Source: Chloroflexota bacterium (GTDB lineage Bacteria; Chloroflexota; Chloroflexia; Chloroflexales; Roseiflexaceae). From it: a stretch of 64,000 nt of DNA. Positions within the stretch are counted from its first letter, which is position 1, and each line of letters starts with the position of its first letter. Where the stretch lies: contig JAGWYG010000004.1 of NCBI GenBank assembly GCA_018969485.1, forward strand, positions 1-64,000, given 5' to 3'. The translations under genes and the position numbers were made by a program. This document shows, in pieces, positions 48,975 through 51,433 of the stretch. The notes under the pieces were generated by a model. That model searched no databases, was not told the origin of the DNA, and worked only from the letters and a program-made list of their open reading frames with translations.

Positions 48975-50087
48975 GTGATCGATTCTGTGATCGGGCCGCT
49001 CACGACCATCGCCGCATTCCTGGCGATGCTCGGTGTCCTCGTCATCGTACACGAGCTCGGCCACTTTCTCACGGCCGTTCGTCTCGGCATCGCCGTCGAA
49101 GAATTCGGCATCGGCTACCCGCCGCGTGCCTTCACGCTCTTCAGGCGCAATGGCGTCAGCTACACCATCAACTGGCTGCCCCTCGGCGGGTTCGTCCGCT
49201 TTGCCGGCGACGGCGACTCCGTCTCCGGCGTCGGCGGTCTGACGCAGGCGGCACCATGGAAGCGCATCATCATCCTGGTCGCCGGTCCGGCGATGAATCT
49301 CATCCTGGCGATCGCAATCTTCAGCGGGATGTTTCTGGTCAACGGCATCCCCGTCGTTGGGGATGGCGCCACGATCACCGCAGTCTATCCCGACACGCCT
49401 GCGGCCCGCGCCGAATTTCGTGCCGGTGACCGGCTGACCCGGCTCGATGACATCGCCGTCGGCAGCGACCTCAGCGGGTTTGGCGATGTCGCCCGCGACA
49501 ACCTCGGGCAGCCCATCACGGCCGTCGTCCTGCGCGACGGGCAACCCGTGACCCTCACCGTCATCCCTGGTCCGTGGTCCGATGGTACCACAACCATCGA
49601 TGCGGGGTTTGGCTTCTCGTACGAACCAAACGTCACGCTGACGCCGGCGAATCTGCTGGATGCCACCGTCGCCGGCATTCGCCATACGTTCACCGTGTTC
49701 ACGTTCTTCATCGGCGCGATCGGGCAACTGCTTGGCTCGCTCGTGGGCGTCGCCGAGCCGCCGCCCGGCGGCGTCACGGGCGTCGTCGGCATCGCCCGTG
49801 GCACCGGCGAGATCATCGAACGCGATGGCTGGTCGGGCTTTCTGCAATGGACGGCGCTGATCAGCCTGAACCTGTTTCTGGTGAACCTGCTGCCGATCCC
49901 GGCGCTCGACGGCAGCCACATCGTGTTTGCGTTGCTCGAGATGGTGCGTCGGGGGCGGAAGATCCCGGCCGAACGCGAGGCAATGGTGCATGCGTTCGGG
50001 TTCATGGTGCTCATGGGCCTGATGGTTCTGATCACGATCTCTGATGTCGCACAGTGGCTGAGCGGTGCGCCGGTGCTCGGTGGGTGA
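48975..50087 (+). CDS. rseP: RIP metalloprotease, site-2-protease family (RseP)
   Basis: Cuts substrate proteins within the membrane, classically anti-sigma factors after a DegS/HtrA-type cut. 370 residues. His 26-Glu 27-x2-His 30 ('VHELGHF') lies in the first helix and 'PALDGSHIV' carries the third zinc ligand. One PDZ domain lies between the second and third helices ('PDTPAARAEFRAGDRLTRL'). GTG start at 48975 with AAGGAG 7 bases upstream; the frame is open further upstream but covers the promoter. First gene of a five-gene run. Confidence 0.94.
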   Translation: MIDSVIGPLTTIAAFLAMLGVLVIVHELGHFLTAVRLGIAVEEFGIGYPPRAFTLFRRNGVSYTINWLPLGGFVRFAGDGDSVSGVGGLTQAAPWKRIIILVAGPAMNLILAIAIFSGMFLVNGIPVVGDGATITAVYPDTPAARAEFRAGDRLTRLDDIAVGSDLSGFGDVARDNLGQPITAVVLRDGQPVTLTVIPGPWSDGTTTIDAGFGFSYEPNVTLTPANLLDATVAGIRHTFTVFTFFIGAIGQLLGSLVGVAEPPPGGVTGVVGIARGTGEIIERDGWSGFLQWTALISLNLFLVNLLPIPALDGSHIVFALLEMVRRGRKIPAEREAMVHAFGFMVLMGLMVLITISDVAQWLSGAPVLGG

Positions 50088-50095
50088 GTAAACCG

Positions 50096-50350
50096 ATGAG
50101 TGGCATGCCGCGACGGCTGATCGGCGCAAGCGAACTGGGCGACTACCGCTACTGCCAGCGCAGCTGGTGGCTGCGTCGCGCCGTGCGCCGGGGCGCACGC
50201 GGTGATCACCCGCACCCGATGGCGCACTACGTCGATGGCGTGCACCAGCATCGCCGGCATGGCGCGAGCGTCGCGGTGAGCCGCTGGCTGCTCGTCATCG
50301 GCGCGATGCTGGGGCTGATGGCGCTGCTGGTGCTCGGGTGGTGGCGATGA
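50096..50350 (+). CDS. Cas4/RecB-like nuclease, N-terminal part with membrane helix
   Basis: 84 residues. The start 'LIGASELGDYRYCQRSWWLR' matches the N-terminus of Cas4/RecB-type (DUF83) nucleases, including the first of four cluster cysteines. The remainder ends in a membrane helix ('WLLVIGAMLGLMALLVLGWW', about 62-81) instead of the nuclease core, which is supplied by the next gene. The two overlap by ATGA at 50347. GGTGAG precedes the ATG. It follows rseP by 8 bases. Either a gene split by a frameshift or a true two-chain nuclease; the good overlap and both helices favour the second. Confidence 0.68.
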   Translation: MSGMPRRLIGASELGDYRYCQRSWWLRRAVRRGARGDHPHPMAHYVDGVHQHRRHGASVAVSRWLLVIGAMLGLMALLVLGWWR

Positions 50351-50868
50351 CCGGACTGCTCGCCGCCCTGGTCCTCGGCGCGGGTGCTGCGGGATGCATC
50401 ATCGCGGCGCTGTCCGTGCGCCGCTCGACTGGCGTCCCGTGGGGGCGCATCGTGAGCGAGGACGTGCGCGGGCGCCGGCATGCCACGACGCTGAGCGCGC
50501 CGCACCTGGGGCTGGTGGGCCGGCCCGACTACCTGCTGGAACTGCATGACGGCTCGCTGGTGCCGGTCGAGGTCAAGCCGGCGCGTCGTGCGCGGCGTGC
50601 CTACGATTCGGACGTGCTGCAGCTCGCGGCGTATTGTGTGCTGGTCGAGGAGACCTACGGCCGGCGCCCGCCGTACGGGCTGCTGCACTATGCACGGCGC
50701 ACATTCCAGCTGCGGTATGAGCCGTCGGTGCGGGCCGAGGTGCTGGCGACGCTCGCGGCAATGCATGCCGCGCTCGAGGCTGCGGTCGCCGTCGATCGTG
50801 ATCACGCCGATGAGGCGCGCTGCCGCGCGTGCGCGCTGGCCAGTCGGTGTGAACAGGCGCTGGTGTGA
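50347..50868 (+). CDS. Cas4/RecB-like nuclease, core part with membrane helix
   Basis: 173 residues. An N-terminal membrane helix ('GLLAALVLGAGAAGCIIAALSV', about 3-24) precedes a PD-(D/E)xK core: 'GRPDYLLE', 'VPVEVKPAR' and 'DVLQLAAYC' supply the Asp, Glu-x-Lys and Gln-x3-Tyr of the RecB motif, all intact. The tail 'CRACALASRCEQAL' gives the three C-terminal cysteines; with the one in the upstream gene this makes the four-cysteine Fe-S set of Cas4. No other cas gene or CRISPR array is present, so a repair or DNA-uptake role is more likely. Confidence 0.75.
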   Translation: MTGLLAALVLGAGAAGCIIAALSVRRSTGVPWGRIVSEDVRGRRHATTLSAPHLGLVGRPDYLLELHDGSLVPVEVKPARRARRAYDSDVLQLAAYCVLVEETYGRRPPYGLLHYARRTFQLRYEPSVRAEVLATLAAMHAALEAAVAVDRDHADEARCRACALASRCEQALV

Positions 50869-50870
50869 CT

Positions 50871-51122
50871 ATGGATGCAGCGATTCGTGCCGCCCGCGCC
50901 GCCGTCATCGACCAACTCGCCCAGGCGCCGGCGGCACCTGACCACGGCGGTGATCTGGCCGACTGGGCGCTCGCCCGCTTCGATGAGTTCGACCGCAGCG
51001 GCGTTCTGCTCCGTGACCAGACGCTCGCCGATGTGCTCGATGTCCTGATGTTCGACGGCGGTGCCGATGGTCTTGGCCGCGATGATCTCGACCGCTTGCG
51101 GCGTATGCTCATGACGCCATGA
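50871..51122 (+). CDS. Small acidic protein, unknown
   Basis: 83 residues, not recognised. Strongly Ala/Asp/Leu-rich and predicted helical, without cysteines or membrane segment. It starts 2 bases after the nuclease gene and overlaps the next gene by ATGA, so it is part of the same translational unit. A GTG at 50865 is an alternative start. A partner or regulator of the membrane nuclease is conceivable, but this rests on position only. Confidence 0.6.
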   Translation: MDAAIRAARAAVIDQLAQAPAAPDHGGDLADWALARFDEFDRSGVLLRDQTLADVLDVLMFDGGADGLGRDDLDRLRRMLMTP

Positions 51123-51433
51123 GAATCCGCACGCATCCCAAGCTGCGCAGCATGCACGTCGGCGATGAAGTCTATTCGCTGCGCGAGCACATCTATGCGC
51201 GCGTCACCGCAATGTTCCCGGCAGCGGTGTGTGTACATACGATCACGCTCAGCTGGCAGCATGGGGCGACGCTGCAGACGACGCCACAGCTCTGGTGTGC
51301 CGAGGATATCGAGAACCTGAGCATCTGCCGCTCGTGCGGTCTCCGTGATGACCTGGCGTGCGAGTATCCGACGGGTGCGCCATTCCGCCTGTGTCGCTCC
51401 TGTCGGCACCCACGTGGCAGCTGTGCCGGATGA
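51119..51433 (+). CDS. Small zinc-ribbon-like protein, unknown
   Basis: 104 residues. The C-terminal part has two CxxC knuckles ('CRSCGLRDD' and 'CRSCRHP') that should bind zinc, plus extra cysteines. The N-terminal part is a short alpha/beta segment. Start overlaps the upstream gene by ATGA. It ends the rseP-nuclease run. A nucleic-acid or protein-binding ribbon is likely; no family recognised. Confidence 0.62.
   Translation: MRIRTHPKLRSMHVGDEVYSLREHIYARVTAMFPAAVCVHTITLSWQHGATLQTTPQLWCAEDIENLSICRSCGLRDDLACEYPTGAPFRLCRSCRHPRGSCAG

Follow-up and report, generated by a model that had tools for sequence, protein, structure and literature searches.

Our analysis covers a 64,000-nucleotide stretch of a Chloroflexota genome, hereafter the window, in which two adjoining small genes encode proteins, designated chain A and chain B, that correspond to the N-terminal and C-terminal halves of a Cas4-type nuclease. 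The source genome comprises 4.0 Mb in 247 contigs, of which the window belongs to contig 94, and is related to Kouleothrix and other Chloroflexota. The features of the locus are as follows.

48975-50087, + strand: rseP-like M50/PDZ protease, upstream of chain A; a kept neighbour in Chloroflexales-type loci
50096-50350, + strand: chain A, 84 aa; N-terminal half of a Cas4-type nuclease with a predicted C-terminal membrane helix
50153-50155, + strand: codon of C20 in chain A, the first cluster-type cysteine; matches a cysteine of the solved Cas4 structures 8d3l and 4r5q
50249-50251, + strand: codon of H52 in chain A, in a GxxxH motif; RecB-type metal-binding His, matching the His of 8d3l, 4r5q and 7mi4
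50285-50341, + strand: membrane helix predicted from hydropathy in chain A, residues 64-82
50347-50350, + strand: ATGA, the 4-nt overlap of the A stop and B start codons, which recurs in many relatives
50347-50868, + strand: chain B, 173 aa; C-terminal half of a Cas4-type nuclease with a predicted N-terminal membrane helix
50356-50412, + strand: membrane helix predicted from hydropathy in chain B, residues 4-22
50527-50577, + strand: catalytic motifs of chain B, with codons of D61 (50527-50529), E75 (50569-50571) and K77 (50575-50577)
50821-50850, + strand: codons of C159, C162 and C168 in chain B, the last three cluster-type cysteines
50871-51122, + strand: ORF3, a small conserved protein
51119-51433, + strand: ORF4, a conserved zinc-ribbon protein, in ATGA overlap with ORF3

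Gene order and sequence motifs

The gene for chain A starts 8 nt past that of the rseP-like protease, and the compact arrangement that an earlier sequence-only reading had described, in which A and B overlap by ATGA and are followed by two tightly spaced small genes, one of them a zinc ribbon, is what the coordinates give. The same reading placed the nuclease in an rseP operon; this holds for the window but not as a general trait of the nuclease, since the rseP/ORF4 setting is seen only in Chloroflexales-type loci. There, rseP, ORF3 and ORF4 are the neighbours (counts including the window's copy and a duplicate), and the 37 loci in which ORF4 adjoins, a count that includes the window's copy and duplicates, are without exception of this type. 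ORF4, of about 100 aa, matched no Pfam or NCBIfam model; its IENLS motif and four ribbon cysteines are invariant across Chloroflexales-type loci. Measured against the nearest relative (L001, MAG LaPlata_bin-0339), dN/dS values (NG86) of 0.32 for A, 0.14 for B, 0.20 for ORF3 and 0.18 for ORF4 indicate purifying selection on all four reading frames, which together with the invariant residues described below argues that the locus is not a product of chance.

Chain B exceeds the cut-offs of two nuclease families in hmmscan (PF12705, 31.3 bits against 22; PF01930, 29.7 bits against 22.7), and on its own scores 58.2 against the Cas4 model TIGR00372, under the curated cut-off of 65. A PF01930 profile search of the genome itself gave no match at E <= 0.001, although B passes the Pfam cut-off in hmmscan; a family-specific profile does recover B in this genome. 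Chain A matched nothing at a meaningful level among the Pfam and NCBIfam models. In a joint A+B profile, A aligns with the N-terminal region of Cas4 proteins of solved structure, the A part alone being weak at 14.8 bits (8d3l); C20, held in the motif YRYC20QRSWW, coincides with the first cysteine of those proteins, and H52 with the histidine in their GxxxH motif.

When relatives are aligned, all 49 A chains have C20 and G48, and 48 of them have H52. Across the 47 aligned B sequences, which include two archaeal single chains, nine residues are invariant (G58, P73, E75, K77, Q92, G111, C159, C162 and C168), and D61 is kept in 46. These patterns bear out the proposal of the sequence-only reading that the 84-residue chain holds the first cysteine and the start of the fold, while the second holds the PD-(D/E)xK core and the last three cysteines. 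Metal ions are bound in this superfamily by the His, Asp and Glu that are conserved in the RecB motif (PMC12538437). The pair has a PD-(D/E)xK core with RecB-type motifs, its His on A and the rest on B, and the four conserved cysteines of an Fe-S module, spread over the two chains. Neither chain has a complete site by itself; with C20 and H52 on A and the acidic residues and remaining cysteines on B, the predicted cluster site and the predicted metal site are thus both divided. The earlier account of a divided site was correct for the cysteines and incomplete in that it missed the catalytic-type H52 on chain A.

Predicted membrane anchoring and fold

The membrane helices are predictions from hydropathy and from AF2 helices. 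A 19-residue stretch has a Kyte-Doolittle mean of 2.31 at the C-terminus of A and one of 2.43 at the N-terminus of B, in keeping with the earlier claim that A ends and B begins with a membrane helix. A hydrophobic stretch (19-residue mean >= 2.0), C-terminal in the alignment, is found in all 84 of 84 A chains; 11 of 95 B chains fall below 1.6, probably because their start codons were set too far downstream. On average the part preceding the A helix has a net charge of +2.6 and the part following the B helix one of +2.4; two or three residues lie on the outer side of each, and by the positive-inside pattern the soluble parts of both chains should lie inside.

A structural model was obtained with AF2 for one read-through A+B chain of a relative from the same family (L011), in which the stop codon was read as Gly (pLDDT 94.7, pTM 0.90). 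In this model a long helix extends from the His motif and continues as the membrane helix of A; next come the helix of B and then the core. Its ten best PDB matches in Foldseek are Cas4, Cas4/Cas1, ACE1 and AdnAB proteins, and the relative's read-through model thus has the Cas4 fold. The elements are ordered in the same way in a model of a natural archaeal single chain, L115 (pLDDT 94.0, pTM 0.88), which matches Dna2, Cas4 and MGME1.

Our reading, to which we assign a probability of about 0.85, is that A and B are obligate partners that jointly form one membrane-bound Cas4-type Fe-S nuclease; this figure covers the two-chain enzyme and not its biological role. We infer binding of A to B in the cell, the presence of an Fe-S cluster and nuclease activity, and by analogy with other Cas4 proteins the substrate is most likely single-stranded DNA ends.

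Separate genes and natural fusions

The two chains could instead have separate jobs, B as a nuclease-like membrane protein and A as a small membrane protein, without a joint enzyme. The distribution of the genes makes this improbable. Among 400 Chloroflexota genomes, many of them drafts and many related to one another, 117 have both A and B, only eight are discordant (4 with B only and 4 with A only) and 275 have neither, at thresholds of >= 80 bits for B and E <= 1e-6 for A. Given the drafts and the kinship, a Fisher value for these counts is not to be taken as a probability. Two of the B-only genomes have A in another form: one has a natural fusion (G022), and the other has the two genes split, its A being divergent (G124). 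Pairwise distances of A and B correlate across 74 loci (r = 0.90), as a common species history would also produce. Holders of the pair presumably include Roseiflexus (G166), Chloroflexus (G118, G238) and Herpetosiphon (G110).

Natural single-chain fusions, which join A to B, provide further evidence that the two work together. In the archaeal phylum of locus L005, probably Thermoplasmatota, a relative is present in 125 of 194 genomes at E <= 1e-10, and of the 30 archaeal loci that were classified, 15 show the split at the corresponding position and the other 15 are single chains in which at least two hydrophobic helices separate the His and D motifs. Three Ktedonobacteria-like loci (L117, L118 and L119, family f24) are likewise single chains with helices in the same place, and are nested among split loci. 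In the tree, fused loci and split loci from archaea fall into two groups (SH-aLRT 90 and 99), with L156 apart, and at least five changes between split and fused states, in either direction, are required. The tree rests on 125 usable columns, with many forks unsettled and an ancestral state that may be either split or fused. By eye, additional hydrophobic helices separate the halves in archaeal single chains: apparently four in eight of them (L139, L143, L145, L147, L151, L152, L155 and L158) and about eight or more in L162.

Some Ktedonobacteria-like members (L117-L120, L123-L126 and L136) have lost catalytic residues, with D changed to A, T or S, or E to D, V or A, and their cysteines are kept where fully read. 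From these sequences, such members may retain the Fe-S scaffold without nuclease activity, which means that this activity is not family-wide. Their losses are also what speaks for separate jobs of A and B; against this, neither chain's motifs vary among the remaining members.

A joint enzyme might alternatively be made as a single working chain through programmed frameshifting or stop read-through. Adjacent pairs are tight, single-chain homologues are known, and 12 of the 70 closest A/B pairs lie in the same frame. However, these 70 pairs show all three frame relations (45, 13 and 12), so that the relation varies between loci, and B has a start codon at the expected place in every locus read. 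A and B occupy separate frames in all 83 Chloroflexota loci where both genes were read, with 32 overlaps, 38 gaps of 0-90 nt, six gaps of 91-300 nt and seven cases with a whole gene between (start codons picked by rule). Another 11 genomes have an A that does not adjoin B, and in each of them it was located elsewhere. Where a gene intervenes or A is unlinked, two chains must suffice, and we regard a single working chain as very improbable. The idea that a local frameshift or sequencing error broke one ordinary Cas4 gene, for which the 4-nt overlap of frames could be a remnant, is refuted by the relatives: they repeat the split in 83 pairs, with all three frame relations among the 70 closest, gaps of up to a whole gene and A unlinked in 11 genomes, and purifying selection acts on both chains. 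The split proposed by the sequence-only reading thus persists in almost every Chloroflexota locus read, A being a separate gene even when unlinked, and the unsplit homologues, far from being helix-less chains that would suggest a local mutation here, carry hydrophobic helices at the split point.

Among the loci with an intervening gene, L050, L055, L058 and L070 (Anaerolineae-like) have between A and B one whose product looks repeat-like by eye (MSDLLNRLGYLQTRRDR...) and gives just a sub-threshold match to Adaptin_N; in L057 and L085 the intervening genes appear L,D-transpeptidase-like, also by eye. In the genome of L004, one of the 11 with A unlinked, A still lies behind rseP, with B, ORF3 and ORF4 by an AlaX-like gene. 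The L004 record (JAAUTF010000194.1) is labelled Candidatus Gracilibacteria yet has B, ORF3 and ORF4 of the Chloroflexales type, and is probably misnamed.

Proposed assembly, possible roles and known relatives

For the two-chain enzyme we propose the following assembly. Chain A would be an N-inside protein with a C-terminal anchor, and chain B a signal-anchor protein whose soluble part lies inside. Their membrane helices would pair, rebuilding the hairpin of the single-chain homologues and so bringing the soluble halves together, with the split point at the outside loop of this hairpin. C20 of A and C159, C162 and C168 of B would then hold the Fe-S cluster, H52 of A together with D61 and E75 of B would form the metal site, with K77 and Q92, and the assembled nuclease would sit on the inner face of the membrane. 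We lean towards the view that the sites are completed only when two separate membrane proteins meet, that the split has been kept or regained in both bacteria and archaea, and that assembly is part of the function in an undescribed membrane-bound DNA-processing pathway. Control is perhaps exerted through a separate supply of A, as in the genomes where A is unlinked.

The biological role can be addressed only tentatively. The chromosomal setting, the housekeeping neighbours, the holders that lack Cas1 and the lack of viral relatives lead us to favour, as one possibility, housekeeping DNA-end processing at the membrane, in repair or replication, over CRISPR adaptation or mobile defence. No relative of the pair was found on viral contigs, and plasmids gave just partial, low-identity matches, mainly to annotated Cas4 or PD-(D/E)xK proteins. 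Outside Chloroflexales-type loci the most frequent neighbours are NAD kinase (15, Chloroflexota) and RLI-like proteins (7, archaea). Neither NAD kinase beside the Anaerolineae-like loci nor the archaeal neighbours RLI, beta-propeller and saccharopine dehydrogenase gave a lead to function. RLI-like (ABCE1) genes, whose products have Fe-S domains, lie near the split pair in L168-L170 and L173-L176, as assigned by gene length.

A part in CRISPR adaptation or phage defence, performed from the membrane, is unlikely. Kinship with Cas4 points in this direction, and Cas1 occurs more often where the pair is present (86/121 genomes) than where it is absent (66/279), a comparison that ignores kinship among the genomes. 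Against this, Cas1 was not found in the window's genome (G000), which fits the earlier claim of a nuclease without CRISPR genes, and it is missing from 34 more of the 121 holders (35/121 in all); the genes commonly found nearby are rseP, NAD kinase, RLI and similar ones, and the distribution mostly tracks lineages, with no virus matches. The pair differs from CRISPR-associated Cas4 in its TIGR00372 score and in not lying beside cas1 or cas2. Its position outside CRISPR loci is that of a solo-Cas4; the single soluble chain that is typical of this group, though not defining, is replaced here by two chains with predicted helices.

Still less do we expect an entry nuclease that sits beside ComEC and trims DNA taken up in transformation. 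The predicted membrane position of the pair would suit this role, and ComEC occurs in most genomes, with a short frame (about 500 aa) in the window's order. The pair is also present in families with a long ComEC frame, however, many ComEC-bearing genomes are without it, and the near-universal presence of ComEC makes it uninformative as a partner. In the window's order the frame with the ComEC domain spans about 470-570 aa, against about 730-930 aa in most other listed families, as though the shorter frame lacked the C-terminal nuclease domain.

Solo-Cas4 (COG1468/PF01930) was reported in many Chloroflexi in 2017 (Hudaiberdiev et al., PMC5704561), is common in environmental bacteria and archaea, and has a function described there as an open question. 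The present proteins share with this group the family motifs, a location in non-CRISPR loci and mostly vertical inheritance; the main text of that study names neither a split nor membrane anchoring, whereas here two chains are predicted to be membrane-anchored. The best sequence and fold matches are the type I-C Cas4 (8d3l) and the Cas4/Cas1 fusion (7mi4), with Cys and His at the same positions, but in these the Cas4 domain is unsplit, without membrane helices and within a CRISPR adaptation complex. The archaeal solo-Cas4 proteins SSO0001 (4ic1) and Pcal_0546 (4r5q) share the fold and the four-cysteine layout, but are soluble single chains. ACE1, the Argonaute-associated Cas4 (9iac, 9iab), shares the fold and differs in being a single chain in a different gene context. 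The Fe-S nuclease domains of AdnAB and Dna2, recovered as fold matches, likewise assemble cluster cysteines distant in sequence around a RecB-type core, but in one-chain domains joined to helicases and with no membrane helices between the cysteines. AddB likewise has widely spaced cluster cysteines around such a core. We found no published description of a membrane-bound or split Cas4 in the open-access literature. The suggestion that this enzyme is undescribed thus appears to stand for the split and the membrane anchoring, but not for solo-Cas4 in Chloroflexi, which was already known (PMC5704561).

These findings have consequences for annotation and for the study of the family. Because chain A has no meaningful Pfam or NCBIfam match, annotation misses half of the enzyme. 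The predicted division of the sites between two chains offers clean mutants, in which A alone is deleted, for probing function in cultivated bacteria. The predicted membrane anchoring of a whole branch of solo-Cas4, mostly in two chains, points to the place in the cell where this enzyme should work.
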